From: Henricia sp. BOLD:AAB3569
Lineage: Eukaryota; Echinodermata; Asteroidea; Spinulosida; Echinasteridae
Length of the DNA: 64,000 bases
NCBI GenBank assembly: GCA_037783545.1
Contig: JBBELK010001639.1
Location: forward strand, 62,001 to 126,000
Direction of reading: 5' to 3'
Shown here: positions 1,556 to 62,686 of the stretch, in pieces
Position numbering within the stretch: the first letter of the stretch is position 1
Layout: each line of letters starts with the position of its first letter
The notes under the pieces: generated by a model
Databases searched by the model: none
Seen by the model: only the letters and a program-made list of their open reading frames with translations
Told to the model about the DNA's origin: nothing
Program-made: the position numbers and the translations under genes

Positions 1556-1760
1556 ATGAAGCCATTCTTGGGTGCGCACCTCCTTTACTATGTCTTTGAT
1601 GTGACCAAGTTTGGTTAAGATCAATGTTTGGGAACAACCTTAAAAAGCGCCGACAACGCCTATGCGCTTTGTCTATGGGAAAAAAATCAGAAGAAGAAGA
1701 AGAAGAAACTAGAGCTACGTCTGTTCTATGAACAGAGCGTAGGGCTTTTTCTAATTTTTT
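1556..1760 (+). repeat. Family A cassette ending in a hairpin
   Basis: A conserved segment (GTGACCAAGTTTGGTTAAGATC-like, then GCGCTTTGTCTATGGGA) is followed by an A-rich AGAAGAAGAA tract and a hairpin at 1,715-1,742, where CTACGTCTGTTC pairs with GAACAGAGCGTAG around a TAT loop with one bulge. The same cassette recurs at 4,690-4,870 on + and in reverse at 37,020-37,160, 40,808-41,010, 44,424-44,480, 45,480-45,610 and 52,075-52,260. Confidence 0.8.
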
Positions 1761-1859
1761 TAACTTCAAAAATGAGCATGCTTAGCTTGCAAAAAGTATA
1801 TAAAGTATTTAATTTAAATTTTTTTTACCTTTAATGTGTTACCTTTAAAGGATTGATGA

Positions 1860-2350
1860 CGTAATCAATGTTTTAACAATACAGACATGTTTGGTGGTCG
1901 ACGCACTCTATATTCGCCACTATTGGGCTAATTTGCGCAAACACTGCTATCAAAGGGTCATTTTAAGACTTTTTAATTTTGCCGCTAGAGGGCACCCTTT
2001 TATGGAATGACGTAGAAACTTACATTTTTGGAAACCCTATTTACCTTAGACACTAACACTACCAACCGCATCTCGGCAGCTTTCCCCACTTTTACAAAAT
2101 AGGTTCATTTAACTGCACTTCCGGTTTCTACCGGAAGTGAGCAAGGTCACAGCGATATGTTTTTGGATACCCCACCCTAGTCGAACTCAAACACCTTTGA
2201 CCCCATCCAAATACCTCTTACCAGTTTCAAATGGAAAGGCAAAGTCTGTTTGACCAATAGGGAATTAGGTCAAATGTGAAGGCATGGGGGCATCTGAAAG
2301 ACCTTTATTAATGATCGTATATGCCGAAAGATTCAAGATCGTAGGTCAAA
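1860..2350 (+). repeat. Family A long module with CTCF-like and paired ETS sites
   Basis: The module holds a CTCF-like CCGCTAGAGGGCAC at 1,982-1,995 and an inverted pair of ETS-type sites at 2,116-2,139 (CACTTCCGGT, 4 bp, ACCGGAAGTG). It is inverted-repeated at 51,480-51,970 and 54,470-54,960. Its order of blocks resembles the family B unit (CTCF-like site, 'gactaacac' block, 'gaccaatagg' block, 'gccgaaag' block), so A and B probably share an ancestor. Confidence 0.75.
2116..2139. promoter_or_regulatory. Inverted pair of ETS-type motifs
   Basis: CACTTCCGGT and ACCGGAAGTG face each other across 4 bp in a perfect 10-bp inverted repeat. ACCGGAAGT is the known high-affinity ETS-family motif; binding here is inference. 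Copies lie at 44,048-44,071, 51,678-51,701, 54,660-54,683 (one arm mutated), 55,749-55,770 and 63,865-63,886. Confidence 0.5.
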
Positions 2351-2394
2351 CGGTAGATTTTTTTATGAATTTTTGCATATGGAAACATTAAATT

Positions 2395-2620
2395 TCATGC
2401 CCCTTTAAACTTACACCTGATGACGTCATGATGACGCCATTGTTGGGTGCACACCTCTTCTACTGTGTCTTTGATGTTACCAAGTTTGTTTAAGAACAAC
2501 CTCAAGTTTGGGAACAACCTCAAAAAGTGCCGACAACGCCCATGCGTTATGTCAATGGGGAAAACATCAGAAGAAGAAGAAATAAACGGAAAAACCAAAA
2601 GTTAACGACCTTTGCTTTGC
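2395..2620 (+). repeat. Family A cassette, second version
   Basis: It starts with a TGACGTCATGATGACG box, then 'gggtgcacacctc', 'ttgggaacaacctcaaaaag' and a 'catcagaagaagaagaaat' tract. It lacks the CTACGTCTGTTC hairpin of the first cassette. Inverted copies are at 51,200-51,420 and 54,160-54,380. Confidence 0.7.
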
Positions 2621-2869
2621 TAGTGATCGTATATGGGAAGGAATCAAGGTTGTAGCTCGCATTTGTTAATATTTCATATTTATAATATTTGTATCACCTT
2701 TAATCTGACACGTGATTACGTCATTATGGGATCATCAGTTAAATACCTTTGTTAATTACCGTATATGGCGCAGGAATCACGATCATAGGTGAATCGGCTG
2801 ATTTGTTACGAATGATTGAATATGGAAAACATTAAATTGTATGCTCATTTAATCTTATACCTGATAATG

Positions 2870-3490
2870 AACAGTTTTTGAGTTGTGTCAGTTTGCCTGA
2901 GTGTACTGCTATACAGATCTGCCACTTCCAAGTGTTTGATGAACTGTGAGATACCAAGTCATGGCGCAGGTAAAAACTTTTGATTACTTAATTAGCTCCT
3001 TGAGGAGTATCATAACATGTATGTTCAGGATTCATACTAAGAGAGTATTGGGCCAAATTTCATATAAAACAAAATAACATGTACATTATGTAAACAGTAC
3101 AGTTACCTTCATCGATTGAGAAAAGATTTATTTAGATTTGAAAATATGGCAATTTTCAGTTTTTGCACTTTTAAAAACATCAATTAATTAAGTTACTGTA
3201 AAATTAGTACTATTTGTAATAATGTCACATGGCGTTATAAATTAAATATTTAAAAAGATTATCCTGAAAACTCAGTTTAGAGGCAAGTTTGTTCACATTT
3301 GGGATGGAAACGCGATGTTTACTCGAAATACTGATACACATATATTAGTCATCAAAGGCAGAAATCAGAGCACATAATTAGTTAAGATTGAATAAGAGTT
3401 TGGCCAAGGAGGACAATTTCGTAATTAGATTTTTAAAAGATGGTTCAATAAAATCCAGACAATGACTTAATTATTTCAGGCCTATATTAA
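2870..3490 (+). repeat. Non-coding block shared by both arms
   Basis: AT-rich sequence with no ORF of note. It is inverted-repeated at about 50,290-50,960, and its end (3,330-3,490, 'catcaaaggcagaaatcaga' to 'aggcctatattaagc') is also found at 6,740-6,900, 40,255-40,450, 42,165-42,370 and 53,720-53,930. Confidence 0.7.
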
Positions 3491-3494
3491 GCTT

Positions 3495-3720
3495 TTGTTT
3501 TTAAATGGGACGTGCACTGCATGTTCGCGCAACTTACAACAAGTACATGTACTATACATGTTTACACGTACTGCGCATTCTCTCTTTAGCTATACATGTA
3601 TAACTATGAGGGCGCTATATCACTTTCACGGTAGCAAAACGCGAGTGCATGGCCTGGGGCGCGGCGGGGTGGCTTATGCATGGTTTTACGCAAATTACGA
3701 CTTGGCTGAACTTTGGCCTT
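3495..3720 (+). repeat. Block shared by both arms
   Basis: This segment, with several ACATGTA words and 'gagggcgctatatcac', is inverted-repeated at 50,085-50,290. The 93-codon ORF covering it has no recognisable domain and reads into the neighbouring satellite, so it is not called as a gene. Confidence 0.65.
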
Positions 3721-4730
3721 CAATTGACCCAGGACGGAAGGGTCAGATGAAAATGCCTACACAAAGAACATTGTAGTCCATGATCTGATATATAATGTCT
3801 GCTAAATATGAAAACCCTGGGCCATGTGGTTTTATAGAGGGAAACATTTTACGAAATGCATTTGGGGTCATTTTCATGACGAAAATCCACCTTTTTGCCA
3901 TTTTTAAATTATCATCATTACGTAATCATTGACGTCATGGTGATGTTCTACATGGTGGTGGAAGTTTGTGATGGGGCCCATGCCTGTACCTAGTTTTATA
4001 AAGATCAAGCGTTGTTTAATAGCTAATATTGCTTCATAAGTACAAAAACATACAAACAATGTGATTTTTGAATTGGCTGAACTTTGACCTTCGATTGACC
4101 CAGGAAAGAAAAGTCAGATGAAAATGCCTACACAAAGCAAATTGTAGTCCGTGATCTGATCTATAATGTCTGCTAAATATAAAGACGCTGGGCCATGTGG
4201 TTTTATAGAGGGAAACATTTTACCAAATGCATTTTTAGGTCATTTTCATGACGAAAATCCATTTTTTTGCCATTTTTAAATTATTATAATTACGTAATCA
4301 TTGACGTCATGGTGATGTTCTACATGGTGGTGGAAGTTTGTGATGGGGCCCATGCCTGTACCTAGTTTTATAAAGATCAAGCGTAGCTTAATGGGAAATA
4401 TTGCTTCATAAGTACAAACAAATACAAAAAATTAGATTTTTGAATTGGCTGAACTTTGACCTTCGATTGACCCAGGAAGGAAGGGTCAGATGAAAATGCC
4501 TACACTAAGAACATTGAAGCTCATGATCTGATCTAAATGTTTGCCAAATATGAAAACCCTGGGTCATGTGGTTTGGGCAAGGGAACCATTTAAAAAAGTG
4601 CATATTTCGGCAATTTTCCGCTTTTTAGGCATTTTTAAAGTGTTATAATGACGTAACTGATGACGTCACAATGAAGCCATTCTTGGGTGCACACCTCTTA
4701 TACTATGTCTTTGATGTGACCAAGTTTGGT
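3720..4730 (+). repeat. Family A monomers, tandem
   Basis: Three monomers of about 370 bp with the usual block order. TGAACTTTGACCT boxes lie near 4,078 and 4,450, and there is a diverged TGAACTTTGGCCT near 3,708. TTACGTAATCATTGACGTCA occurs twice, and TGATGACGTCACAATGAAG closes the array before the next cassette. Confidence 0.85.
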
Positions 4731-5385
4731 TAAGATCAATGTTTGGGAACAACCTGAAAAAGCGCCGACAACGCCTATGCGCTTTGTCTATGGGAAAAAA
4801 ATCAGAAGAAATAAACGGAAACAAAAAAAACTAGAGCTACGTCTGTTCTATGAACAGGGCGTAGGGCTTTTTCACATTTTTTTACTTGAAAAATTAGCAT
4901 GCTTACCTTGTAAAATTAGATGTTGTTAACATATCAACTATTTAACCTAAAATATTAACCTTTAATGCGTTACCTTTAAAGGACTGATGACGTAATCAAT
5001 GTTTTAACTACAGACATGTTTGGTGGTCGACGTACTCTATAAGCACCACTATGGGCTAATTTGCGCAAACATTGCTATGAAAGGGTAATTTTAAGATTTG
5101 TTAATTTCGCCGCTAGAGGGCGCATTTTTTGGAAAGCATTTACCTTAAACACTAACACTGCCAACCCGATCTCGGCATCGTTGACCACTTTTACAAAATA
5201 GGTTTATTTAAATGCACTTCCGGTAGAGCAAGGTCAAAGGTCAACACCATAGTTTTGAATACCCTACCCTAGTTGAACCATAACACAGTAGACTAGCTCT
5301 GAACACGTTCAAACTACAAGCAGAGTCTATTTGACCAATAGGTCAAACAGTCAAAGGTCAAAGCATGTGGGCATCTGAATAATAG
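4730..5385 (+). repeat. Family A cassette with hairpin, then CTCF-like module
   Basis: A hairpin at 4,837-4,864 (CTACGTCTGTTC / GAACAGGGCGTAG) is followed by 'ggactgatgacgtaatcaat' and a CTCF-like CCGCTAGAGGGCGC at 5,110-5,123. The ETS site is only half preserved (CACTTCCGGTAG near 5,215). The right-arm counterpart is 43,900-44,470. Confidence 0.75.
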
Positions 5386-5695
5386 TGATGAGATTTATAT
5401 AGCGCACATATCCACCCAGCAGGGTGCTCAAGGCGCTGTTACCATTATTACCGCTGCCATCAGGGAATCACCAGAACCATTTCGCTTCAACTAGGTGGCT
5501 GCTGGTCAGGCGCACAACACTATCAGCAGTTATATTGTGGCATTCCCCTTAACAGCTTCCCATATATCGCTTGGGTTTACGAGGCAACTGGGATTAAGTG
5601 CCTTGCCCAGGGACACAGACACGTTGGTCGAAGTGGGGTTCGAACCTCCAACCTCTGATTGGGAGTCCCGCCTCATATCCACTAGACCACACGCG
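5385..5695 (-). mobile_element. tRNA-derived SINE with L2-type tail (left-arm copy)
   Basis: Reading the minus strand: a tRNA-like head with a B box (GGTTCGAAC-type, near 5,636), a body with 'gtgtccctgggcaaggcact', and a 3' end with 'gagcaccctgctgggtgg' and 'gcgctatataaatctcatc', which resembles L2-clade LINE tails. The same SINE at the matching inverted position lies at 43,595-43,896, so it was present before the arms were duplicated. The tRNA part is diverged and is not a working tRNA gene. Confidence 0.75.
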
Positions 5696-5699
5696 TAAG

Positions 5700-7440
5700 A
5701 TGTAGACGTTTGCCCGCCACATTGAAACAGGAGGAATTGCTCCTTTTTGCAAAGGTTCCCGAAGTTACCCGAATGCACGTCCGGACGTTATCGTTAATCG
5801 TCGGGTATGATTCGTCATTGTTTCGAGAATTTGAGTTGACGTCGCGTGCACTATGCGTGCCGCTGCGTGTGTATTTGGTGATGCAACGGATTCAGAACTA
5901 CTACGCAGTGGCTATAGTTACGGTAACCGTAAAGCGATAATGAATGGCTATATAGTTACGGGATTACAACAGCAGATTAAAAGTACAATATGGAGCTCAG
6001 CTGGGTGATGCAGACAAGGTTTGAATTTGCTTTTAGATGCTAGGCCTACATGTATATTAAAATGGCATGTGTAATATATTAATTGTTTATGAATTTTTAT
6101 TATTATTTTTAGAAGTAGTTTGGAAGCATGACAATTAATCCTCGTGCGCGCTGTCAGTCCGCTTTGCGAGCGTCGTGCGTCCATCGCCCATACTTCATAG
6201 GAACGCGTACAATACACACGGCGTACGCGCGTTTTGGAATAGCCGTAAGCGCTTTAAACCCGCGCTGTTAGCTCATGCAGCCCATTGTGTCGTCATTTGC
6301 CCATACTTTTCCAAGTCACGATTTTCAATGCACGATCGTTGGTCTATAGGTTTATAGGTCTGTGCATCACCGTAATTTATGAATGACGCCCTCTGCCGGT
6401 CACGTACAGAAGTCGACATTTGGTGGCTTATGCATTGTTTTACTCAAATTTTGACTTGGCTGAACTTTGGCCTTTAATTGACCCAGGACGGAGGAATCAT
6501 ATGAAAATGACTCCACCAAGCAAATTGTAGCCCATGATCTGATATATAATGTCTGCTAAATATGAAGACCTTGGATTATGTGGTTTTATAGAGGGAAACA
6601 TTTTAAAAGTGCATATTTTGGTAATTTTCATCTGCTGTCTCACGATGTAGTCAGCGAAAAAATATTGTTAAATTTTAGTTTGTTTTGTTCACATTTGGGA
6701 TGGAAATCCGATGTTTACTCGAAAAACTGATATAGGCCTACATATATTAGTCATCAAAGGCAGAAATCAGAGCACATAATTTGTTAAGATTGAAAAGAAT
6801 TTGGCCAAGAAGGAACATTTTCTTAATTATATTTGTTGAAGATGGTTCAATAAAATCCAGACAATGACTTAATGATATCAGGCCTTTATTAAGCTTTGCA
6901 CCTTACTAAACCTAAAAGGAAGAAAACAAACATTGGAATGAATGCTTCACGGCAAAACTACGACATTCCCTCAATAACATACAATTACTTTCTTGTAGAG
7001 AGTGGACTCTCTTAAATAAGACTGAAATAACATAAAAGATTGTATCCTACTCACATGTCCTTTTGTTAAACCATCTTCTGTAGAATTACACGTCCGTGGT
7101 AGATACAGTTAAAAGTTACCGTGTCACCGTCTCGGTCGACGCCGTGTCACACAGGGCACACGGAATTGACAGCTACGGTAAAGATTTATTTGTACGACGT
7201 TTGCTCGCATTGAGAACGGTCAAATCTAAAACTAGGCCCCTTGCATAACACTGGTCACTGCTCAGTCAACCAAAAACATAATGACATGATCATGGTGTCA
7301 TTTTGAAGAGGAGATTCGACCCTAACAGATGATAACTCCCGTTCATTCATACGCGCCCTACTTTAGTTACAATTAGCAATAATATCTCGGTTTCGTTTTT
7401 TTCAATCCACCCTGTAAATACGGAAATGTTGACTTGGCTA
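5700..7440 (+). repeat. Long module shared by both arms, no gene
   Basis: Mostly non-satellite sequence with inverted counterparts at 42,560-43,575 (for 5,700-6,480) and 41,600-42,560 (for 6,480-7,440). It contains 'gacgccctctgccggtcacg' near 6,386, a CTCF-like motif on the minus strand. The ORFs do not match a known family and differ between the two arms. Confidence 0.7.
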
Positions 7441-8490
7441 AACTTTGGCCTTCAATTGACCCAGGAAGGAAGGGTCAGATGAAAATGAGTACACAAAGCA
7501 AATTGTAGCGCAGGATCTGATATATAATGTCTGCTATTTATGAAGACCCTGGGTCATGTGGTTTCATAGAGGGAAACATTTTACGAAATGCATTTTTGGC
7601 TAATTTTTATGACGAAAATCCACTTTTTGGCCAATTTTAAATAATTATAATTACGTAATCATTGACGTCATGGTGATGTTCAACATGTTGGTGGAAGTTT
7701 GTGATGGGGCCCATGCCTGTACCTAGTTTTATGAAAATCAAGCGTACTTTAATAGCTAAAATTGCTTCATAAGTACACAAAAACACAACAAATGTGAATT
7801 TTGAAATGGCTGAACTTTGACCTTCGATTGACCCAGGAAGGAAGGGTCAGATGAAAATGCCTACACAAAGAACATTGTAGCCCATGATCTGATCTATAAT
7901 GTCTGCTAAATATTAAGACCCTGGGTCATGTGGTTTTATAGAGGGAAACATTTTACGAAATGCATTTTTGGCTATTTTTTATGACGAAAATCCACTTTTT
8001 GGCCAATTTTAAATAATTATAATTACGTAATCATTGACGTCATGGTGATGTTCTACATGGTGGTGGAAGTTTGTGATGGGGCCCATGCCTGTACCTAGTT
8101 TTATAAAGATCAAGCGTAGTTTAATAGGTAATATTGCTTCATAAGTACAAAAAATACAAACAATGTGATTTTTGAATTGGCTGAACTTTGACCCTTTCAT
8201 TCGGAAGGGTCAGATGAAAATGCCTACACTAAGAACATTGTAGGCTAGGATCTGATCTATATGTCTGCTAAATATGAAGACCCTGCGTCACGCGGTTTTG
8301 GCAAGGGAATCATTTTAAAATGTGCATATTTTGGTAATTTTCGGCTTTTTAGGCATTTTTTAACTATTGTAATGACGTCACTGATGACGTCACAATGAAG
8401 CCATTCTTGGGTGCACACCTCCTATACTATGTCTTTGATGTGACCAAGTTTGGTTAAGATCAATGTTTGGGAACAACCTTAAAAAGCGCT
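7440..8490 (+). repeat. Family A monomers and cassette, inner copy
   Basis: Three monomers, one with the DR1-like box truncated at 8,186, then the 'gtgaccaagtttggttaaga' cassette shortened to 'aaaaagcgctttgtctatggg'. It matches inverted sequence at 40,880-41,600. Confidence 0.8.
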
Positions 8491-8529
8491 TTGTCTATGG
8501 GAAAAAAATCAGAAGAAGAAATAAACGGA

Positions 8530-8740
8530 AAACTAGAAGTATATGTCTGTTGATAACAGAGCATATGGCTTTCCGCTTTTCTTTTTTTGTATGTTTGTAT
8601 GCATGTAAAACTGCATGCTGTATAATACTACATGTACACTTTGTACAATGTAAATACATACGTACATGTACACTTTGTACAATGTAAATACATACGTACA
8701 TGTACATGTACATGCACAGTGACAACATTCCAAAATTCAT
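8530..8740 (+). repeat. Hairpin and ACATGTAC-rich tandem duplication
   Basis: The hairpin at 8,541-8,566 pairs ATATGTCTGTT with AACAGAGCATAT around GAT. A unit of about 36 bp ('acatgtacactttgtacaat' onward) then repeats twice at 8,631-8,705 and ends in a short ACATGT run. A nearly identical hairpin and flank occur at 10,736-10,870. Confidence 0.75.
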
Positions 8741-11700
8741 AATAAATCAACAAATCACGCATGTCATATGCCTGTTAATGACCAGGTCCAGTCACCTGCT
8801 AGGTTTCAAGGTCATACGACCAATGGAAGAAGTAAACAACCTAGGTTAATGTATACTTGAGGAACTTTTATTTAATTACGTCATCGTGACATCACAATAT
8901 TTAGCTGATAATACACATTGCACCAAGTCAAACAACCTTGGCTAATGTATGCTGCACAAGCGCGCTTTTTTGATGACGTCATCGTAACGCCACCAAATGT
9001 TGCTGACAATAAGCATTAGAGCAAGTCACAACAAGCCTAAAACACAAAATTTTACCCCCATCGGTCTTTTCGTTCTCTAGATATAGCCGTTAGAAGAACG
9101 CATGTTCAACCGAGTGTAATTTGACACCTGGTGACGTCATCAAACTTTTGAAGGTATGGGCATGTTTACTGACCCTCAGTGAACATATGCACCAATTTTG
9201 GGCCAATTTGCAAAAACTTCGCCACAGACATCTCTTAAAAACGCGTTTTGACAATTTTTCAACTTGCCGCTAGAGGGCGCTCTTTTGTGTGACGACCTAA
9301 CTTTTGGTATTTTTTTGATGCCCAAGGGGTCCTGAGACTAACACTTTTGACCCGATCTCGGTATCTGCTACCAGTTTTAAATGACAGGGCAGCCTCGATT
9401 TCGACCAATAGGAAGCAAGATTCAAGGTCAATGTCTCTGTATGAAATTTAGACCTTCGATAGTCATGACCATTGCCGAAAGAATAAAGTTTGTATCTCAA
9501 ACGGTTGAATTTTTACAAATTGTTGAATGTTTAAGTCATTAAATTTCAGACACATGTAATCTGACACCTGGTGACGTCATCAAGATGTAACCTCTTTGGT
9601 ATAGTACTTTACTATGGGTTCCTTATTGTGACCAAGTTTGATGATGATCCAAGCTTTGCAAGCGACCCTTCTAGCAGCGAGACAGACTGTGTGCTTTGTC
9701 TATGGGATATGGGGGAAGTGCAGAGATGTATGCATATTGTACATGCTTATGTACACTCGTATATACTGCACTGTGTGTATGCTGTGGTATAAGTTGCCAG
9801 ATTCAAAAATTCATAACAAATCAACAAATGACGTCACACTAATGTAACTTGGTATGTTATATGTTAATGACCAAGTCTACGTCCCTGCTAGGTTTCAAGG
9901 TCATACGCCCAATAGAGGAAGTGAACGACCTTGGCTAATGTATGCTGCACAAACGGGCTTATTTGATGACGTCATCGTTACGCCACCAAATTTTGCTGCT
10001 AATATGCATTAGACCAAGTCACAACAAACCTAAAACACACAAGTTGACCTCCATCGGCCTTTTCGTTCTCTAGATATAACCGTTATAAGAACGCATGTTC
10101 AACTGAGTGTAATTTGACACCTGGTGACGTCATCAAACCTTTGAAGGTATGGGCGTGTTCACTGACCCTCAGTCAACATATGCACCAATTTTGGGCCAAT
10201 TTGCAAAAACTTCGCCACAGACATCTGTTCAAAACGCGTTTTGGCCATTTTTCAACTTGCCGCTAGAGGGCGCTCTTTCGTGTCACGACTTAACTTTTGG
10301 TAATGTTTGAATGCCCAAGGGGTCTTGAGACTAACACCGTTGATTCCATCTTGGTATCTGCTACCAGTTTTAAATGACAAGCCAGCCTCGTTTTCGACCA
10401 ATAGGAAGCAAGATTCAAGGTCAATGTCTGTGTACGAAAGTTAGACCTTGGATAGTCATGAACATTGCCGAAGGAATAAAGTTTGTATCTCAAACGGTTG
10501 AATTTTTACAGATGTTTCAATATTGAAGGCCATATATTTCAAACGCTTGTAATCTGACACCTGGTGACGTCATCAAGATGTAAACACATTTCTGCAGTAC
10601 TTCACTATGAGGTGATTGTTGTGACCAAGTTTGATGATGATCCGAGCTTTGCAAGTGACCATTTTGCCAGGCCGAAAGACCATGCGCTTTGTCTATGGGG
10701 TTTTGACGGAAGAATAAAAAAAGCTAAACTAGAGGTATGTCTGTTGATAACAGAGCATATGGCTTTCCGCTTTTCTTTTTTTGTATGTTTGTATGCATGT
10801 AAAACTGCATGCTGTATAATACTACATGTACACTTTGTACAATATAAATACATACTGTACATATACATGTACAATATGCACAGTGACAAGATTCAAAAAT
10901 TCATAATAAATCAACAAATCATGCATGTCATACTAATGTAACTTGGTATGTTACATGTTAATGACCAGGTCCAGGCACCTGATAGTTTTCAAGGTCATAC
11001 GACCAATGGAGAAAGTAAACGACCTTGGTTAATGTATACTTGAGGAACTCTTATTTGATTACGTCATCGTGACGTCACAATATTTAGCTGATAATATACA
11101 TTTGACCAATTCAAAATACGTTTTGGTTTTTTTCAACTCGTCACTAGAGGGGGCTGTTTCGTGTGACGACTTAACTTTTTGTATTTTTTGAATGCCCAAG
11201 GGGTCCTGAGACTAACACCGTTGACACGATCTCGGCATCGCTTACCAGTTTTAAATGACAAGGCAGCTTCGTTTTCGACCAATAGGAAACAAGATTCAAG
11301 GTCAATGTCTCTGCATGAAATTTAGACCTTGGATAGTCATGACCAGTGCCGAAAGAATAAAGATTGTATCTCAAACGGTTCAATTTTTACAGATTTTTCA
11401 ATTTGCAAGGCATTAAATTTCAGACACATGTAATCTGACACCTGGTGACGTCATCAAGATCTAACCTCTTTGGTATAGTACTTTACTATGGGTTCCTTAT
11501 TGTGACTAAGTTTGATGATGATCCAAGCTTTGCAAGCGACTCTTCTAGCACCGAGACAGACTGTGTGCTTTGTCTATGGGATAGTGCAGATGTATGCATA
11601 TTGTACATGCTTATGTACACTCGTATACATGTATATACTGCACTGTGTGTATGCTGTAGTATAGGTTGCCAGATTCAAAAATTCATAACAAATCAACAAA

Positions 11701-13600
11701 TGACGTCACACTAATGTAACTTGGTATGTTATATGTTAATGACCAAGTCTACGTCCCTGCTTGGTTTCAAGGTCATACGACCATTAGAGGAAGTGAACGA
11801 CCTTGGCTAATGTATGCTGTACAAACGGGCTTATTTGATGACATCATCGTTACGCCACCAAATTTTGCTGCTAATATGCGTTAGACCAAGTCACAACAAA
11901 CCTGAAACAAAATATTTGACCTTCATCGGCCGTTTCGTTCTCTAGATATAGCTGTTAAAAGGATGCACGTTCAAGCGAGTGTAATTTGACACCTGGTGAC
12001 GTCATCAAACTTTTGAAAGTATGGGCGTATTCACTGACCCTCAGTGAACATATGCACCAATTTTGGGCCAATTTGCAAAAACTTCGCCACAGACATCTCT
12101 TCAAAATGCGTTTTGGCCATTTTTCAACTTGCCGCTAGAGGGCGCTGTTTCGTGTGACGACTTAACTTTTGGTATTTTTGTAATGCCCAAGGGGTCCCGA
12201 GACTAACAACGTTGACCCAATTTCGGTATCGGCTACCAGTTTTAAATGACAACGCAGCCTCGTTTTCGACCAATAGGAAGCAAGATTCAAGGTCATTGTC
12301 TCTGCATGAAATTTAGACATTGGATAGTCATGACCATTGCCGAAACAAAAATGTTTGTATCTCAAACGGTTGAATTTTTACAAATTTTTTTATTTTTAAG
12401 GCATTAAATTTCAGACACATGTAATCTGACCCCTGGTGACGTCATCAAGATGTAACCTCTTTGGTATAGTACTTTAGTATGGGTTCCTTATTGTGACCAA
12501 GTTTGATGATGATCCAAGCTTTGCAAGCGACCCTTCTAGCAGCGAGATAGACTATGTGCTTTGTCGATGGGAAATGGGGTAGTGCAGATGTATGGCGATT
12601 GTTCATGCTTATGTACACCCGTATATACTGCACTGTGTGTATGCTGTGGTATAGGTTGCCAGATTCAAAAATTCATAACAAATCAACAAAGGACGTCACA
12701 CTAATGTAACTTGGTATGTTATATGTTAATGACCACGTCTACGTCCCTGCTAGGTTTCAAGGTCATACGCCCATTAGAGGAAGTGAACGACCTTGGCAAA
12801 TGTATGCTGCACAAACGGGCTTATTTGATGACGTCATCGTTACGCCACCAAATGTTGCTGCTAATATGCATTAGACCAAGTCACAACAAACCTAAAACAC
12901 AAAATTTGACCTCCATCGGCCTTTTCGTTCTCTATATATAACCGTTAGAAGAACGCATGTTCAACTGAGTGTAATTTGACACCTGGTGACGTCATCAAAC
13001 TTTTGAAGGTATGGGCATGTTCACTGACTCTCAGTGAACATATGCACCAATTTTGGGCCAATTTGCAAAAACTTCGCCACAGACATCTCTTCAAAATAGG
13101 TTTTGGCCATTTTTCAACTTGCCGCTAGAGGGCGCTCTTTCGTGTCACGACTTAACTTTGGGTATTTTTGGAATGCCCAAGAGGTCTTGAGACTAACACT
13201 TTTGACCCGATCTCTGTATCTGCTACCAGTTTTAAATGACAGGGCAGCCTCGTTTTCGACCAATAGGAAGCAAGATTCAAGGTCAATGTCTGTGTATGAA
13301 ATTTAGACCTTGGATAGTCATGACCATTGCCGAAAGAATAAAGTTTGTATCTCAAACGGTTGAATTTTTACAGAAGTTTTTATTTGAAGGCCATATATTT
13401 CAAACGCTTGTAATCTGACACCTGATGACGTCATCAAAATGTAAACACATTTGTGCAGTACTTCATTATGAGGTGATTGTTGTGACCAAGTTTGATGATG
13501 ATCCGAGCTTTGCAAGTGACCATTTTGCCAGGCCGAAAGACCATGCGCTTTGTCTATGAGGTTTTGGGAGAAGAATAAAAAAAGCGGAAAGCCAAAAAAA
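8740..13600 (+). repeat. Family B composite satellite, main array
   Basis: Units of about 0.95-1.0 kb, with one shortened unit near 11,110. Landmarks recur in fixed order: 'gatgacgtcatcgt', 'ttttcgttctctagatata', 'gacacctggtgacgtcatca', a CTCF-like CCGCTAGAGGGCGC, 'ccaataggaagcaagattca', 'gccgaaagaataaagtttg', a second 'gacacctggtgacgtcatca', and 'gtgaccaagtttgatgatga' to 'gctttgtctatggg'. CTCF-like sites lie at 9,267, 10,260, 11,141 (variant), 12,132 and 13,122. I saw no clear family B counterpart in the right arm. Confidence 0.85.
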
Positions 13601-14155
13601 CTAGAAATGTGGTGTTTGTTAGAAACAAACACGCTGTTTCGGACATTTTTTATTATCTGGTTTTCAGCTTTAAAAAAAGTGTAAAACTGTTTGAAAAATA
13701 TTCACGATACTGTCTACATGTATACCCTTCATAAATTTTAGGTCATACATGTACTTATAAATACTGTATTTAAAATACAAAAGCACCGTAATGAATACTG
13801 TGTGACGTCATTACGTTTCAGGTTTGTTGCTACTTTCGGGTATGAAGTTATCAAATACCTATATATGGGGAGTTGTGTTGGAATGAATAGTTTATTAAAT
13901 AGTGGTTGTTGGAATAATTTATGTACAGAGTGGAATTTATTCCCGTCAACAGGTGTTTGTTTTATTTTACCAAACATGTTAGAAAAAGCATATAAAATAA
14001 ATAAGGAATATATTAAGAGTTTGTAACGTGTTTACATGTTTAAGTAGGGCAGGTGTTAAAAATAGTTATATCTGTTAACTTTAAAACTAATATCTACATG
14101 TGTTAGAAAAAGTATATACATGTAAATAAATAATGAGTATGAGTTTGTTGTCAAT
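13601..14155 (+). other. Hairpin followed by unassigned sequence inside family B
   Basis: A hairpin at 13,612-13,632 pairs GTGTTTGTT with AACAAACAC around AGA. About 500 bp of AT-rich sequence follow that do not match the B unit and show no recognisable gene. A 74-codon ORF at 13,802-14,026 has no identifiable domain. Confidence 0.5.
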
Positions 14156-15915
14156 ACAACATACGACCAATAGAGAAAGTAAACGACCTTGGCTAATGTT
14201 TGCTTAAAAACTCGCTCATTTCATGACGTCATCTTGACGTCACAACATTTTGCTGATAATATACATTAGACCAAGTCACAATAAACATAAAACAGAAAAT
14301 TTGACCTTGATCGGCCTTTTCGTTCTGTACATATAGCTGCTTGAAGAATGAATGTTCAACTGAGTGTAATTTGACACCTGTTGACATCATTAACATTTTG
14401 AAGGTATGGGCATGTTCACTGACCCTCGGTGACCATTAGCGGCAATTTTGGGCCAATTTGCAAAAACTTCGCCACAGACATTTGTTCAAAATGCGTTTTG
14501 GCCATTTTTCAACTCGCCGCTAGAGAGCGCTATTTTGTGTGACGGCTTAACTTTTGGTATTTTTTAAATGCCCAAGGGGTCCTAAGACTAACAAAGAGGA
14601 CTGCATTCCAATACCTACTACCATTTTTAAATGGCGAGCCAGCCTCGTTTTCGACCAAAAGGAAGCGAAATGCAAGGTCAATGTATAGAAACAAAATGTA
14701 GTACTTAATGAATTAAGGTCAAACCCGAAGAAATTTTGTCCTTATCTCAAACAGTTGATTTTTTACAGATTTTTGAATATTATAATTACCGACTTTCGAC
14801 TGCCTGTAATCCGACACCTGGTCACGTGACCATGAATCCACGGAATGGTGGTACACCTTCAGGGTATGTACTAACTATCTGCCAAGTTTGACTGGAATCG
14901 GACGTGTAGAAGTGTGTGAATTGCCTCTTAGAAAAACACGTGCATTGTCTATGGGATTTCGTCAAGTTCAGATAATGACTGCAATGTGTGTATTTGTTGC
15001 AATATTAAAAAATTCATAACAAGTCAACAAATGACGTCATACTAATGTAACTTGGTACGTCATATGTCAATGACCAGGTCTAGGAACCTACTAAGTTTCA
15101 AGGTCATATAACCCATACAGGAAGTGAACGACCTTGGCAAACGTTTGCTTAACAAACTCGCTTATTTGATGACGTCATAGTGACGTCACAACATTTTTCT
15201 GGTAATATGCATTAGACCAAGTCAAAACAAACCTAAAACACAAAATTCGACCTCCATCGGTCTTTTCGTTCTCTAGATATAGCCGTTAGAAGAACGCATG
15301 TTCAACCGAGTGTAATTTGACACCTGGTGACGTCATCAAACTTTTGAAGGTGTGGGCATGTTCACTGACCCTTAGTGAACATATGCACCAATTTTGGGCC
15401 AATTTGCAAAAACTTCGCCACAGACATCTCTTCAAAATAGGTTTTGGCCATTTTTCAACTTGCCGCTAGAGGGCGCTCTTTCGTGTCACGACTTAACTTT
15501 TTGTATTTTTGGAATGCCCAAGAGGTCTTGAGACTAACACTTTTGACCCGATCTCTGTATCTGCTACCAGTTTTAAATGACAGGGCAGCCTCGTTTTCGA
15601 CCAATAGGAAGCAAGATTCAAGGTCAATGTCTGTGTACGAAATTTAGACCTTGGATAGTCATGACCATTGCCGAAAGAATAAAGTTTGTATCTCAAACGG
15701 TTGAATTTTTACAGAAGTTTCAATTTGAAGGCCATATATTTCAAACGCTTGTAATCTGACACCTGATGACGTCATCAAAATGTAAACACATTTGTGCAGT
15801 ACTTCATTATGAGGTGATTGTTGTGACCAAGTTTCATGATGATCCGAGCTTTGCAAGTGGCCATTTTGCCAGGCCGAAAGACCATGCGCTTTGTCTATGG
15901 GGTTTTGGGAGAAGA
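14156..15915 (+). repeat. Family B composite satellite, end of array
   Basis: Two further B units. The first (to about 15,000) is the most diverged, with CCGCTAGAGAGCGC at 14,517-14,530 and CACCTGGTCACGTGACC replacing the usual CRE box. The second is close to the 12,700-13,600 unit and has its CTCF-like site at 15,463-15,476. Confidence 0.8.
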
Positions 15916-15953
15916 ATAAAAAAAGCTAAAAAAAAAATCAGAACAGTTTCAAA

Positions 15954-16388
15954 GGCTTTCCGCAGAAGTGCGGAAAGCCAAAAAGAAAAAAAATCAGAAC
16001 GAAAACAATAGCTGTTTCGGCCCTACCGAAACAGCTAAAAATCAGAACGAAAACAATAGCTGTTTCGGCCCTACCGAAACAGCTAAAAAAAAAAAAAAAA
16101 TCAGAACAGTTTCAAAGGCTTTCCGCAGGAGTGCGGAAAGCCAAAAAAAAAAAAAAAAAAAAAAATCCAAACGAAAACAAAGGCTTTTTCGTCCTAAACG
16201 AAAAAGCCAAAAAAAATCAAAACGAAAACAAAGGCTTTTTCGTCCTAAACGAAAAAGCCAATAAACGGAAAAAACAATATCAAAACGAAAACAAAGGCTT
16301 TTTCGCCGCAAAGCGAAAAAGCCAATAAACGAAAAAAAAAAAATCAAAACGAAAACAAAGGCTTTTTCGCCGCAAAGCCAAAAAAGCC
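15954..16388 (+). repeat. Array of eight A-tract plus hairpin cassettes
   Basis: Stems lie at 15,954-15,979 and 16,117-16,142 (GGCTTTCCGC/GCGGAAAGCC), 16,010-16,036 and 16,058-16,084 (AGCTGTTTCGG/CCGAAACAGCT), 16,182-16,208 and 16,233-16,259 (GGCTTTTTCG/CGAAAAAGCC), 16,296-16,323 (GGCTTTTTCGC/GCGAAAAAGCC) and 16,360-16,388 (imperfect). Most are preceded by an A-run and ATCARAACGAAAACAA. On the minus strand each hairpin is followed by a T-run, much like an intrinsic or Pol III terminator, though nothing shows that it works as one. Confidence 0.85.
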
Positions 16389-16414
16389 AAAAAAATAAAT
16401 CGTACGAGAGTAAT

Positions 16415-16443
16415 AGGTGATCGGGCTGTTGGCCCGATCACCT
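16415..16443 (+). repeat. Terminal hairpin of left arm
   Basis: A perfect 12-bp stem AGGTGATCGGGC/GCCCGATCACCT with loop TGTTG, preceded by ATCGTACGAGAGTAAT. The same hairpin with its flank occurs inverted at 36,775-36,803, exactly where the right arm begins, and again at 62,687-62,715 and 62,811-62,839. Confidence 0.85.
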
Positions 16444-16496
16444 AATAACACATGCATTTGTAAAGCGCCATCTACATGTATCTATGTAAACATATT

Positions 16497-17619
16497 CTTA
16501 TTTTTTATTACACGAGTTCTGAGACTATGGCAAAGAAATTGTTAAAATTCTCATAGAAATGTATTTCTTTTCACGGTGTTACCTAACTTAGTCATCTACC
16601 GGGCTGATTTTAAATGGTAATTTTAATTAATTAATTTTTAATTAATTTTAATTAATGAGGAGTCTCCATTTTTTACCCCAAAAGTGCCAAAAACTTAAAA
16701 GAAAACGTACACCACATAGTTTTAAAAATTAGCATTTGTATTACATACTAGTAATCCATTTAATCCGTTCATGGGGCAGATCAAATTTTGGAGGAAGCCA
16801 AATCGGTACACTAATTAGTGCTCAATTAAAGGGATAATAAGGAGTCTGGTTTCCACTAAAAAAGTGCCGAAAACTTAATACTGCTGACAAAATGTCCCTT
16901 TAAAATAAAATGTACACCACATAGTTTGAAAAATTTGCATTTTTATTACATAATCCGTTTGAAACTATGTAGTGTACATTTTCTTTTAAAGGGACCATTT
17001 TGTCAGCAGTATTCAGTTTTCGGCACTTTTGGGGTGGGAAATGGAGACTTCTCATTAGCCCTTTAATTAAGCACTAATTTGTGGACCGATTTGGCTTCCT
17101 CCAAAATTTGATCTGCCCCATGGACGGAACAAACGGAATATGTAATAAAAATGCAAAATTTTCAAACTATGTGGTGTACATTTACTTTTAAAGGGACATT
17201 TTGTCAGCAGTATTAAGTTTTCGACACTTTTATAGTGGAAACCAGACTCCTTATTAGCCATTTAATTAAGCACTAATTTGTGGACCGATTTGGCTTCATC
17301 CAAAATTTGATGTGCCCCATTGACGGATCAAACAGATTATGTAATAAAAATGCTAATTTTTGAAACTATGTGGTGTACATTTTCTTTTAAAGGGACCATT
17401 TTGTCGGCAGTATTAAGTTTTCGGCACTTTTGGGGTGGAAAATGGAGACTCCTCATTAATTAAAATTAATTAAAAATTAATTAATTAAAATTACCATTTA
17501 AAATTTAATCAGCCCGGTAGATGACTGAGTTAGGTAACACCGTGAAAAGAAATACATTTCTATGAGAATTTTAACAATTTCATTGCCAGAGTCTCAGAAC
17601 TCGTGTAATAAAAAATAAG
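16497..17619. mobile_element. Foldback element of about 1.1 kb
   Basis: The ends are long inverted repeats: CTTATTTTTTATTACACGAG at 16,497 and its complement ending at 17,619, extending about 150 bp inward with few mismatches. Inside, a subrepeat of about 220 bp ('gtgtacattttcttttaaag', 'ggcagatcaaattttggagg' and similar) occurs in both orientations. ATT on both sides may be a 3-bp target duplication. No transposase is encoded, so it is non-autonomous. Confidence 0.8.
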
Positions 17620-17639
17620 ATTTTATCACCTTTTAATAC

Positions 17640-17920
17640 ATCCGTTTGAGATTTTAAGACCGCGGCTGGATTTTGGGCCCAATACGCGGCTAGGTTTAGT
17701 CGGGTAATGAACCTGGAATTTCCCGCGCGCGCGCTGAAGGCTGTGCCGTGGCGTTCGATGAGCTGTACACATAAATACCTTTGTTGCCATGGTCTGCCGG
17801 ACTGTTCACACTACGAACGAGCACCCCCTATGACTCGATGATAGCTAATTGAACGCACCCATTGCTCTCGCAACGTTACTGGATTATAATAAACGTTCAT
17901 TTATGAAGCGTGTTTTTCAT
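17640..17920. other. Stretch without recognised features
   Basis: Single-copy-looking sequence with a short GC-rich part (17,660-17,760, 'cgcgcgcgcgctgaagg'). No gene or repeat is recognised. Confidence 0.4.
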
Positions 17921-18430
17921 GGTTTACAAACCCTTCAATTTTTCGTCAATGATCGTATTTTGAGATGTACCGAGTGCATAATACTTCTTATTTTATCGAT
18001 AGTCAACCTTTACAAACGACAGAAACGTGTATAAAGCTTTAATTTCCTCTGTTTGTAAACCATGACATTTTGCGACACACTAACTAGTCCATTTTCATTA
18101 TTTACAAACCCTTAAATTTTTCGTCAATGATCGTATTTTGAGATGTACCGAGTGCATAATACTTCTTATTTTATCGATAGTCAACCTTTACAAACGACAG
18201 AAACGTGTATAAAGCTTTAATTTCCTCTGTTTGTAAACCATGAAATTTTGCGACAGACTAACTAGTCCATTTTCATTATTTACAAACCCTTCAATTTTTC
18301 GTCAATGATCGTATTTTGAGATGTACTTCTTATTTTATCGATAGTCAACCTTTACAAACGACAGACAAGTGTATAAAGCTTTATTTTTTTCTGTTTGTAA
18401 ACCATGAAATTTTGCGACACACTAACTAGT
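17921..18430 (+). repeat. 178-bp tandem repeat, three copies
   Basis: TTTCGTCAATGATCG recurs at 17,941, 18,119 and 18,297, so the period is 178 bp; the third copy has an internal deletion. Each unit contains TATTTACAAACC and TGTTTGTAAACCATGA, linking it to the shorter-period array that follows. Confidence 0.85.
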
Positions 18431-18990
18431 TCATTTTCATTATTTATAAACCATGAAATTGTGAGCCAACGATCACTTTCAATTATTTACAAACCATCAA
18501 AATGCACGCCTATTGACTATTTGTAATTGTTTACAAACCACAGAATCCACAAAATTGATTAGAACGGCGCAGTTTAGATTGTTTATAAACCATGGAATTG
18601 TACGTCCACTAACCAATTTTCATTATTTATAAACCATAGAAAATCAGACCCCGGTGCAAGTTTCTTGGTTTATAAACCATGTAATTGCGCACTGGATAGT
18701 TTTGTATTATTTGTAAACCAGAAAAACGTGCAGCAATGTGCAGTATTCATTATTTATAAACCATGGAATTGTCTATGAACGATACAATTCTCTTGTTTGT
18801 AAACCATTGAAATGTACACTGGTCGGTTTCATTAATAAAGTATGGAACGCCGAGGTAATTTTCATTATTTGTAAATAATGAATTTGCACAGCTACAAGTA
18901 TATTTCCTGTTTTGTAAAGAATCGAGTTGTTTGTAAACCATAAACGGCCTTTGACACAAATGCATTATTTACACAGAATTAAGATAAACC
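18430..18990 (+). repeat. Array of about 45-bp units with a FOX-like core
   Basis: About a dozen copies of a 20-bp core, roughly TTATTTATAAACCATGGAAT, at 40-50 bp spacing with almost unrelated sequence between. Most cores fit the forkhead consensus TRTTTRY (TATTTAT, TATTTAC, TGTTTAC, TGTTTGT, TATTTGT). The later copies (from about 18,830) decay. Regular spacing with unlike spacers superficially resembles CRISPR, but this is an eukaryotic degenerate tandem repeat. Confidence 0.7.
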
Positions 18991-22931: not shown

Positions 22932-24615
22932 TGGAAATGTTCGTCAACATTGTCTGATTCATTAGTTCAATATTTGACTTCAAGTGCAGAAATAATTTGA
23001 ATTTTGAGGTTGAATTCAATATCCGACCACTATAAACGTCTTTATTCTGTAAATGAAAAATAAACAATGCATGTTAGAACAAGTTTGATGATAAAAATGA
23101 GAAATAAAATTATGACATGTCTGATTTTAGGCCCCCAGCCTGGATTTCCATTGTTATAAAACCATGTAAAATGTTATTTTAGTTGTAAAAACCATGGTGT
23201 AAAAACTAAGAGAGAGAAATTTTCATGATTTTTAAATTTTTTCCTACTGCTGTCCAACATTGTCCAAGGAAATGTTCGTCAACATTGTCTGATTCATTAG
23301 TTCAATATTTCACTTCAAGTGCACAAATAATTTGAATTTTTAGGTTGAATTCCATATCCGACCACTATAAACGTCTTTATTTTATATTAAATGAAAAATA
23401 ACAATGCATGTTAGAACAAGTTTGATGATAAAAATGAGAAATACAATTATGACATGTCTGATTTTAGGCCCCCAGCCTGGATTTCCATTGTTATAAAACC
23501 ATGTAAAATGTTAGTTTAGTTGTAAAAACCATGGTGTAAGAACTAAGAAAGAGAAATTTTCATGAATTTTTAATGTTTTCCCACTGCTGTCCAACATTGT
23601 CCAAGGAAATGTTCGTCAACATTGTCTGATTCATTAGTTCAATATTTCACTTCAAGTGCAGAAATAATTTGAATTTTTAGGTTGAATTCCATATCCGACC
23701 ACTATAAACGTCTTTATTTTATATTAAATGAAAAATAAACAATGCATGTTAGAACAAGTTTGATGATAAAAATGAGAAATACAATTATGACATGTCTGAT
23801 TTTAGGCCCCCAGCCTGGATTTCCATTGTTATAAAACCATGTAAAATGTTAGTTTAGTTGTAAAAACCATGGTGTAAGAACTAAGAAAGAGAAATTTTCA
23901 TGAATTTTTAATGTTTTCCCACTGCTGTCCAACATTGTCCAAGGAAATGTTCGTCAACATTGTCTGATTCATTAGTTCAATATTTCACTTCAAGTGCAGA
24001 AATAATTTGAATTTTTAGGTGGAATTCCATATCCGACCACTATAAACGTCTTTATTTTGTATTAAATAAAAAATAAACAATGCATGTTAGAACAAGTTTG
24101 ATGATAAAAATGAGAAATACAATTCTGTTGTGTCTGATTTTGGGCCCCAGCCTGGATTTCCATTGCTATAAAACCATGTAAAATGTTAGTTTGGTTGTAA
24201 AAACCATGGTGTGAAAAATAATAGAGAAATTTTCATGATTTTTAAATTTGTCCCACTTCTGTCCAACATTGTCCAAAGAAATGTTCGTCAACATTGTCTG
24301 ATTCATTAGTTCAATATTTCACTTCAAGTGCAGAAATAATTTGAATTTTTAGGTTGAATTCCATATCCGACCACTATAAACGTCTTTATTTTGTATTAAA
24401 TGAAAAAGAAACAATGCATGTTAGAACAAGTTTGATGATAAAAATGAGAAATACAATTATGACATTGTCTGATTTTAGGCCCCAAGCCTGGATTTCCATT
24501 GTTATAAAACCATGTAAAATTTTAGTTTAGTTGTAAAAACCATGGTGTAAAAACTAAGAGAGAGACATTTTCATGATTTTTAGATTTGTTCCCACTGTTG
24601 TCCAACATTGTTCAA
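22932..24615 (+). repeat. Tandem array of five copies of about 336 bp
   Basis: GGAAATGTTCGTCAACATTG recurs at 22,933, 23,268, 23,605, 23,943 and (variant) 24,277, with spacings of 334-338 bp. The units are highly similar, the middle ones nearly identical. Each contains 'ccaccagcctggatttcc'-like, 'ttataaaaccatgtaaaa' and 'tgtaaaaaccatggtgta' segments. No coding sequence is present. Confidence 0.9.
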
Positions 24616-27384: not shown

Positions 27385-27645
27385 TGACCTTTGCTCTGAA
27401 GTTGGCTTTACATAACAAAATAAACCGTAAGCAGTCAATCTGAGAGTGAACATTTTCACCACACAGAAGCTTTTGTGTGTCATGCATAATGAAGCTGTTA
27501 CGTGAATATTTCAATGCCAACTTAATTATATAAAAAAAGTTTGTCAAATTTTGATTTATTTTGTTGCTCGGTATACATCCATTGAAAAACGACGCATGTG
27601 ACAAGTATCTCCTTTTGAATGCCATCCGGCAAGAATTCTTTTAGA

Positions 27646-27998
27646 ATGAATCCTTTTAGGATGAATCCTTTTAGGATGAATCCTTTTAGGATGAATCCTT
27701 TTAGGATGAATCCTTTTAGGATGAATCCTTTTAGGATGAATCCTTTTAGGATGAATCCTTTTAGGATGAATCCTTTTAGGATGAATCCTTTTAGGATGAA
27801 TCCTTTTAGGATGAATCCTTTTAGGATGAATCCTTTTAGGATGAATCCTTTTAGGATGAATCCTTTTAGGATGAATCCTTTTAGGATGAATCCTTTTAGG
27901 ATGAATCCTTTTAGGATGAATCCTTTTAGGATGAATCCTTTTAGGATGAATCCTTTTAGGATGAATCCTTTTAGGATGAATCCTTTTAGGATGAATCC
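27646..27998 (+). repeat. 15-bp minisatellite, 23 perfect copies plus one partial
   Basis: ATGAATCCTTTTAGG repeats without a single change from 27,646 to 27,990, with a partial unit to 27,998. Because 15 is divisible by 3 and no frame has a stop, three frames stay open as pentapeptide repeats (NPFRM, FILKG, HPKRI). They are not evidence of a protein. Perfect identity points to recent expansion or strong homogenisation. Confidence 0.95.
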
Positions 27999-28694: not shown

Positions 28695-29028
28695 ATCCAC
28701 GAGGAGTTGGATAGCGTAGTGGGCGGCGGGCGCCAGCCGGCTTGGACTGACAAGTATTGTCTCCCGTACTGCGAGGCCGTCATGCTAGAGCTGCTTCGCT
28801 ACCGACCAACGGGCGCACTCGCCGTGCCACACGTGTCTCAAGAAGACGCCCAACTGTTGGGGCACAGCATTCCAAAAGACTGCACGGTGCTGGTAAACAT
28901 CTACGCGGCTCACCATGACCCGGCATACTGGGACGAGCCAGAGTCATTCCGACCCGAACGATTCCTATCGACTGACGGGAAGGTGGTTGTCAAGCCTTCG
29001 CATGCCTCTTATTTTCCGTTTGGCGTTG
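28695..29028 (+). CDS. Cytochrome P450, K-helix to haem-loop exon
   Basis: The second recognised P450 exon, 111 codons plus one base, from ATAG|ATC to GTTG|GTGAGT. It carries the K-helix ExxR as ELLR in CEAVMLELLRYRP, the IPKDCTVLVNIYAAHHDP segment, the meander motif FRPERF, and the first half of the haem loop, FPFGVG. The intron splits the glycine codon before RR, and that phase-1 position matches the last intron of vertebrate CYP2 genes. Two exons that are separate in vertebrate CYP2 genes are fused here. ExxR and FRPERF are intact, so nothing marks this part as a pseudogene. Confidence 0.92.
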
Positions 29029-29384
29029 GTGAGTTTTGGAAGGGAATACATTACAACAAGAATCTCCCGTAACAACAGTTAACATTGGGCAAAACACAGG
29101 AAAAATGCAAACTACATGTATATATTTGGTCCAAGCGTGGTTAAAGAAAAATCGTGAGAAATTTCACTTTTTTTGTTCAGTGATTTCTGCAGAAAGGCTA
29201 ATACTATCCTACCCGCAATATCTCCTGTGTGCGAGAAATTGCCACCTGAAGATGGTTTTAATCCTTTAGAGGAGCGTGTCTAGATTTTCTCGAAATTTGA
29301 TTTAGATGTAACTTAACAATTATATAAAATACCACCCAAAAATACTATTCATGACAAGAAAACAAAAATGTTTGTACAAATATG

Positions 29385-36770: not shown

Positions 36771-36774
36771 AATT

Positions 36775-37015
36775 AGGTGATCGGGCCAACAGCCCGATCA
36801 CCTATTACTCTCGTACGATTTCTTTGTCTTTTTTAGGTGATCGGAACTTTTTCCGATCACCTATTACTATTGTACGATTTCTTTTTCTTTTTTTTTTGGC
36901 TTTTTGGCTTTGAGCGAAAAAGCCTTTGTTTTCGTTCTGATTTTTGGCTTTTTCGCTTTGCGGCGAAAAAGCCTTTGTTTTCGTTTTGATTTTTTTTTTT
37001 CCGTTTATTTCTTCT
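36775..37015 (-). repeat. Hairpin cluster opening the right arm
   Basis: Four hairpins: 36,775-36,803 (AGGTGATCGGGC stem, loop CCAAC), 36,835-36,862 (AGGTGATCGGAA/TTCCGATCACCT), 36,898-36,924 (imperfect GGCTTTTTGG/CGAAAAAGCC) and 36,946-36,973 (GGCTTTTTCGC/GCGAAAAAGCC). ATTACTCTCGTACGAT follows the first, exactly as in inverted form at the left-arm end. T-runs follow the hairpins on this strand. Confidence 0.85.
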
Positions 37016-45300: not shown

Positions 45301-45321
45301 AAACCCAAAATATGCATATTT

Positions 45322-45610
45322 AGGTGATCGGAACTCATTCCGATCACCTATTACTATTGTACGATTTGTTTGTTTGTTGGCTTTTTCGCTTTGCGGCGAA
45401 AAAGCCTTTGTTTTCGTTTTGATTTTTTTTTTCCGTTTATTGGCTTTTTCGTTTGCAGCGAAAAAGCCTTTGTTTTTGTTTTGATTTTTTTCTTCTTCTT
45501 CTTCTTCTGATTTTTTTCCCATAGACAAAGCGCATAGGCGTTGTCGGCGCTTTTTCAGGTTGTTCCCAAACATTGATCTTAACCAAACTTGGTCACATCA
45601 AAGACAGAGT
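45322..45610 (-). repeat. Internal hairpin cluster and cassette
   Basis: Hairpins at 45,322-45,349 (AGGTGATCGGAA/TTCCGATCACCT), 45,379-45,406 and 45,442-45,468 (GGCTTTTTCG-type), then the inverted 'ctttgtctatggg' cassette. This is a complete element end lying inside family A sequence. Confidence 0.8.
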
Positions 45611-62680: not shown

Positions 62681-62686
62681 CTTTTT

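Follow-up and report, generated by a model that had tools for sequence, protein, structure and literature searches.

The hairpin array and its surroundings

The window, a stretch of 64,000 nucleotides from contig C1639 of the asteroid Henricia sp., carries at 15937-16444 a row of nine units that each consist of a leader and a hairpin, are spaced at 48-65 bp, and read A B B A C C C C D when ordered by stem (A, GGCTTTCCGC; B, TAGCTGTTTCGG; C, GGCTTTTTCG; D, TAGGTGATCGGGC). The nine-hairpin array claimed by the first-pass annotation of this DNA is real: the interval 15936-16450 contains eight perfect stems 9 bp or longer, and 196 of 200 dinucleotide shuffles of the same stretch contain none. On the minus strand (strand here always means the one on which the elements described below read 5′ to 3′), the units are assigned as 5′ ends of family A at 15937-15979, of family B at 15993-16037 and, as a tandem twin (48-bp period, 100% match), at 16041-16085, of family A again at 16100-16142, of family C at 16165-16208 and 16216-16259 (both with the loop TCCTAAA), 16279-16323 (loop CCGCAAAG) and 16343-16388 (a decayed copy, the ninth unit, with a single mismatch in the right arm), and of family D at 16399-16444. 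The leader described as common to all units holds for six of the nine, where it is ATCARAACGAAAACAA-like (with one change in one of them), but not for the two A units (ATCAGAACAGTTTCAA) or the D unit (ATCGTACGAGAGTAA). The further stems placed at the equivalent site of other units, CTACGTCTGTTC, ATATGTCTGTT and GTGTTTGTT, are instead palindromes of the opposite element end. Four stacks of this kind lie inside the window when both strands are counted, and 55 matches to similar arrays were listed across the genome, the array itself being included in both counts.

A second array of nests occupies 36774-64000 in the opposite orientation (plus strand) and continues to +66268. The intervening DNA holds a cytochrome P450 exon on the plus strand at 28707-29069, which is the sole Pfam match among the 10 of 48 open reading frames scanned, as well as a 15-bp minisatellite (GAATCCTTTTAGGAT, 24 copies, 99% match) at 27633-27998 and a 338-bp tandem repeat (five copies, 94%) at 22933-24615.

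Anatomy of the element ends

In the following, tail denotes a 5′ hairpin end and head a 3′ end bearing ACTAGA. Read on the plus strand, the 3′ module consists of ACTAGA, a palindrome, and one of four signatures (A-D), with the signature starting 33-36 nt past the start of ACTAGA in the 28 heads of the set (a 29th row was dropped as not being a head). The 5′ end, read on the minus strand, consists of a T, a signature of 9-11 bp folded on its complement, and a T-rich microsatellite. A complete element thus runs, 5′ to 3′, as T, signature, loop, complement, leader, T-rich microsatellite, body, signature complement, palindrome, and CTCTAGT, the bases before CTAG differing in some heads. In each of the four families one signature is common to the 5′ hairpin and the 3′ copy, and the families differ jointly at three places: the 5′ arm, the inner arm and the 3′ copy. 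Bodies contain tandem repeats of 328-372 bp, and a GAA/A-rich tract separates their ends from the heads or hairpins that follow. Body ends fall into three kinds (a, c and x), located by a motif scan that allowed up to six mismatches and also matched inside some bodies.

The base outside the 5′ end is T in 67 of 67 units and the base outside the 3′ end is T in 27 of 28 heads, a context at both outer junctions that fits a TT target. The 30 nt beside the 28 heads hold a mean of 18.25 A on the plus strand, against a background of 9.0. Exact C heads number 731 genome-wide, compared with none for reversed controls. A search of viral contigs with a 17-base head motif returned 14 exact-match stretches, none with the palindrome by eye, and these were taken as chance.

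The bodies carry further recurrent motifs. TGACGTCA, which we take to be the CREB/ATF palindrome, has 75 occurrences in the window, where a first-order Markov model predicts 0.82, and 71 of these sites lie within the 43.7 kb of element arrays (1-16444 and 36774-64000); through these elements, many such sites would be spread over the genome. Within bodies, ACTTCCGG and CCGGAAGT, presumably an ETS-like motif, form recurrent hairpins at 2116-2139, 44048-44071, 51678-51701, 55749-55770 and 63865-63886, and all six window copies of each of the two sequences lie inside the arrays.

A proposed model of serial insertion

The hairpin row is most probably a stack of 5′ termini of non-autonomous transposons of the Helitron2/Helentron type (HINEs), belonging to four related families that were nested serially. 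Each hairpin would form the 5′ end of a minus-strand rolling-circle transposon, whose 5′ signature would fold on the complementary inner arm and recur beside the 3′ palindrome. The T-rich microsatellite just inside the 5′ hairpin would at the same time offer T|T, the insertion target. Since an element carries such a tract, new copies of the same or another family would be able to insert there in the same orientation. Insertion would place the guest body between the host body and the host 5′ hairpin, so that 5′ hairpins would become stacked in the reverse order of the 3′ ends, and a stack would constitute a last-in, first-out record of invasions.

Nest 1 and its empty site

The array forms the closing-bracket side of a nest of such putative copies (nest 1; minus strand, 1-16444) that extends to -356 outside the window and spans 16.8 kb (contig 61644-78444). 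Its heads begin with family D at -356 and continue with two of family C (1708-1752, with the 3′ signature GGCTTTTTC, and 4830-4874), two of family A (8532-8576, with GGCTTTCCGC, and 10728-10770) and one of family B (13600-13642, with GCTGTTTCGG); a half A hairpin, comprising the single arm GCGGAAAGCC, lies at 13584-13593 between an A body end and the B head. The 3′ ends matching the families of the array thus lie up to 17 kb upstream. Heads in the order D-C-C-A-A-B face tails in the order A-B-B-A-C-C-C-C-D, with the A unit at 15937-15979 as the innermost closing bracket and the D unit at 16399-16444 as the outermost, which marks the nest boundary. The bracket fit is loose: the innermost tail is A and the last head is B; four tails (one A, one B, two C) lack a matching head; and in a strict one-by-one parse the five host bodies predict only two of five next tails. 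Nest 1 fits the bracket order only if some tails are skipped.

Nest 1 is hosted in one arm of a large inverted-repeat (foldback-like) element (16496-18730 together with contig 60501-61633). The interrupted arm lies to the right of the nest at 16496-16961, with its left part outside the window at contig 60501-61633, and the uninterrupted sister arm at 17130-18730 (contig 79130-80730) represents the empty site. A single unbroken stretch of the sister arm aligns both with the left flank of the outer D head (contig 61144-61643; 94% identity) and with the right flank of the last D hairpin (base 52 of that flank onward; 87% identity), and the intervening 16.8 kb are therefore extra relative to that arm. 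The joined flanks hold 62 bp that are absent from the sister arm. The junction, which reads T|T on the element strand, falls within these 62 bp and for this reason the exact insertion base is not proved; no target-site duplication was seen at this single sister-arm site.

Bracket order in other nests

The second array of the window has heads in the order D D D C C C C and tails in three stacks, D D D / C C D / C C D D. Its features on the plus strand, running down, include a D head with the variant palindrome GCGTTTGT-GTTTTTT-ACATACGC at 62634-62678, a C head at 55055-55099, and further C heads that begin at 52109, 44458 and 40842; the stacks comprise three D ends (62686-62857), the series C C D (45321-45485) and the series C C D D (36774-36990).

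Of the 28 heads, 19 lie directly behind a body end, three behind a tail and six behind neither in the motif scan, although one of the six (8532) is seen behind a C body on reading the sequence. Most copies therefore lie inside one another and not head to tail. Wherever a body end lies at most 90 nt from a hairpin, the two agree in type (14 of 14: a with A in four cases, c with C in eight, x with D in two); no body end was recognized by the motif scan at the locus on C806. The type of the host body likewise predicts that of the next closing hairpin in 11 of 11 cases from unambiguous nests (permutation p 0.00047; pairs entered by hand, nest 1 left out), and a twelfth pair absent from that count, involving the outer c body on C745, also agrees. 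A typed, nested order is seen in most of the nests read.

The order of heads and tails was compared in nine stacks with fetched heads, covering 22 of 28 heads and 46 of 67 tails; left out were five minus-strand heads on C64 that no stack follows within reach, the head at L005, and the L004, L005 and L007 stacks, whose upstream heads were not fetched, and the half A hairpin was not counted. Strict matching by position gave 17 of 22, against a mean of 11.7 for shuffles within stacks (212 of 20,000 as high), 7.5 for pooled shuffles (none as high), 6.3 for swapped stacks (6 of 20,000) and 8 for reversed order. A subsequence score of 21 of 22 (19.3 in within-stack shuffles) was equalled in 2045 of 20,000 of these shuffles and an innermost-match score of 8 of 9 in 1302 of 20,000; shuffles reach both scores so often that they add little beyond composition. 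Clear single cases are C745, with heads C D D and tails D D C C C C D, and C46, with four exact C heads and tails C C C C D D. An all-pairs junction test for empty sites, in which 108 of 159 head-tail pairs gave a spanning match, was dropped as non-discriminating because A-runs and leaders are alike everywhere.

A survey of 16 stacks with 87 units, found with the array at 15937-16444 as the query and hence biased as a sample, showed up to 12 ends per stack, mostly ordered A/B, C, D. Outward changes of type were C to D in ten instances, A to C in three, A to B and B to A in two each, and D to C in one. Eleven of the 15 multi-unit stacks end in D, and subfamily order differs in all 15. Provided that the outer copy is the older one, the succession of families runs from D through C to A and B, C745 being the one reversal.

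Covariation of the stems

The first-pass annotation had read stem changes with pairing kept as the mark of selection on structure. Covariation was evaluated in 15 rows picked by hand, one per subfamily and with decayed copies left out. Both sides changed in nine of 12 stem pairs and one side only in none, and 95% of the 180 cells (15 rows by 12 pairs) were paired. The covariation score was 0.719, compared with 0.221 in shuffles (none of 500 as high) and 0.000-0.163 in slid versions; further pair types were not raised (11 versus 12.2). Paired change with pairing kept implies that the structure is constrained, so that this part of the claim stands, with the constraint belonging to transposon ends and not to the array at 15937-16444. 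The 3′ signature differs between families in step with the hairpin, and the three copies change together.

Such changes occur between families and between apical subfamilies; in the basal stem, paired change is absent among members of one family. The left arm is the same in 41 of 41 C units, and among the 67 units, a set from which units with more than two left-arm changes would escape detection, 61 are perfectly paired over the basal stem and six have one unpaired position. Covariation between families together with single mismatches within them indicates that pairing persists from one transposing lineage to another and is eroded once a copy has inserted, a pattern that would fit the expectation for transposon ends. 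The expectation that covariation would exceed the copying of whole hairpins was mostly not borne out: the signal in the array comes chiefly from whole hairpins copied from four families, which is near to what the annotation itself had named as its refutation.

Alternative explanations

Covariation between families would also be expected of a structured RNA, or of regulatory hairpins under selection at the array locus. This explanation is highly improbable: an Rfam covariance-model scan of the window gave no match above the gathering threshold, no one-sided (G-U type) change occurs among the 180 cells, a lack of intermediates that fits DNA hairpins rather than RNA, and the basal stem shows no paired change within a family. 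Moreover, the signature of every unit family recurs at a transposon 3′ end, and the 3′ end of one family has the 731 exact copies noted above. More improbable still is that the row represents the 3′ tails of 5′-truncated LINE-like retrotransposons that inserted in each other's A-rich tails. The A-rich junctions and the uniform orientation are compatible with target-primed reverse transcription, but copies have a constant start, composed of ACTAGA, the palindrome, and a signature that is the inverted repeat of the other end, which is the mark of asymmetric terminal inverted repeats, and no reverse transcriptase was found in the 10 of 48 window open reading frames scanned. The LINE-tail reading was rejected on this end anatomy.

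A more substantial rival is local tandem amplification, or rolling-circle read-through, that multiplies 5′ ends only and leaves truncated copies with one 3′ end, with no serial insertion. The fully read contig C1639 has 19 tails and 13 heads, and since 5′ ends outnumber 3′ ends, simple nesting is not the whole story. The B twin is an exact 48-bp repeat, and C139, where the stretch fetched holds only two A heads, has nine consecutive A tails besides two C tails and one D tail; a head sits immediately behind a tail in three of 28 cases overall and in one of two at C139. For plants, the available part of PMC12628747 also describes arrays that combine many 5′ ends with one 3′ end. At C64, the tails are A A B A C C C D and the stretch fetched has two A heads on the strand concerned; exact C heads are found some 38-40 kb off, at 895.9 and 898.3 kb. 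Amplification of 5′ ends as the whole explanation is nevertheless unlikely, given that families are mixed within stacks in a fairly consistent order, with the subfamily order different in every multi-unit stack, that the closing hairpin follows the host body in type, and that C heads and C tails are equal in number at C46. The concatemer reading was rejected as the main cause on the finding that most heads lie behind a body end and few behind a tail. Under serial nesting, some surplus tails may belong to unfetched or decayed heads, some may be local twins, as in family B, and some may be parts of composites with several 5′ ends, of the kind proposed for Fusarium (PMC5148889). The surplus suggests that stacks also move as units, some having perhaps been mobilized whole at a later time.

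Relationship to known rolling-circle elements

Helitron2 elements, as described in the available part of Bao and Jurka (2013; PMC3627910), have a 5′ inverted repeat of 8-15 bp located 0-2 bp from the 5′ end in a 5′ hairpin, and a 3′ inverted repeat 20-30 bp from the 3′ end, immediately upstream of the 3′ hairpin. The elements in Henricia share the asymmetric 5′ inverted repeat within a hairpin, the complement just upstream of the 3′ hairpin, and the 5′ T. Their signatures of 9-11 bp lie at the 5′ end (compared by eye) and adjoin the palindrome in all 28 heads, although the distance of the 3′ inverted repeat, 33-36 bp from the 3′ end, is slightly above the range described. Chlamydomonas examples in the same account use a TTTT target, and for one pair of related elements the account likewise notes compensatory changes; stacking of 5′ ends in deep, ordered series, as seen here, goes without mention in the available part of that paper. 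By comparison, canonical Helitron1 elements have a 5′ TC, a 3′ CTRR and no 5′ hairpin, whereas here a 5′ hairpin is present, there is no 5′ TC, and the 3′ end reads CTAG|T.

Resemblance extends to the non-autonomous Helentrons known as HINEs (DINE-1, PMC4067079; oyster Cg_HINE, PMC7492417), for which the available parts of these papers describe palindromic subTIRs, a microsatellite by the 5′ end, central tandem repeats, a 3′ palindrome, and a TT target with no target-site duplication. The T-rich TT insertion context, the microsatellite near the 5′ end and the central tandem repeats are all found in the elements described here, which differ from HINEs as described there in that four signature families nest in one another at the host microsatellite. 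The FoHeli elements of Fusarium (PMC5148889) likewise have several 5′ termini and fewer 3′ termini, with self-insertion as the proposed cause; the available part of that report concerns short repeats of the 5′ end of one family, in contrast to the stacks of up to 12 ends and up to three or four families seen here, whose order can be read against 3′ ends. Plant centromeric Helitron arrays (Xiong et al. 2016, as cited in the available part of PMC12628747) combine multiple 5′ ends with a single 3′ end, but that account attributes them to a single truncated element amplified by rolling circle, as opposed to different families inserting serially. The kind of element, the TT target, the microsatellite, the presence of several 5′ ends and self-insertion have all been published before. 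Ordered, typed and deep stacks look new, and no report of typed, ordered stacks read against 3′ ends was found in the titles and abstract starts of the open-licence papers retrieved.

Candidate sources of transposase

The anatomy of the ends suggests that the elements are moved by rolling-circle transposition with the help of a RepHel partner. Genome-wide, Helitron_like_N gives 150 matches, compared with none in 14 control genomes. Many of the 150, dozens in all, lie in open frames of about 3000-4000 aa (as on C657, C1685 and C43), so that large, apparently intact rolling-circle elements are common. Places were listed for 100 of the 731 exact C heads, completely for contigs C1-C78, and on those contigs two of nine Rep places (11 matches), both on C43, lie at most 16 kb from an exact C head. 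C1685, where a Rep match lies 13 kb from an array, was considered as an autonomous copy and rejected: the 2.5 kb read contain a C body end and a longest open frame of 79 codons. Among the Rep places checked on C1-C78 and C1685, no RepHel element with A-D ends was identified.

Implications for element evolution and genome analysis

A speculative extension, to which we give less than even weight, is that the signatures act as a specificity code. A new family would arise only through joint change of all three copies (5′ arm, inner arm and 3′ copy), thereby escaping cross-termination with older families. As each element brings along a T-rich landing pad next to its 5′ hairpin, successive families would pile into earlier ones, and a stack would become a locus-by-locus chronicle (D, then C, then A/B). 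Whole stacks would also move as composites, with a D start and the 3′ end of a younger family; if this is true, the outermost 5′ signature and the 3′ signature could differ.

A striking hairpin array is explained here without inventing an RNA, and apparent RNA-like covariation can stem from transposon ends, which scans for conserved structure should accordingly mask. The unequal numbers of 5′ and 3′ ends provide a natural test of how Helitron2 elements choose where to start and stop, an open mechanistic question, and bracket order could date insertions relative to one another at single loci without a molecular clock.
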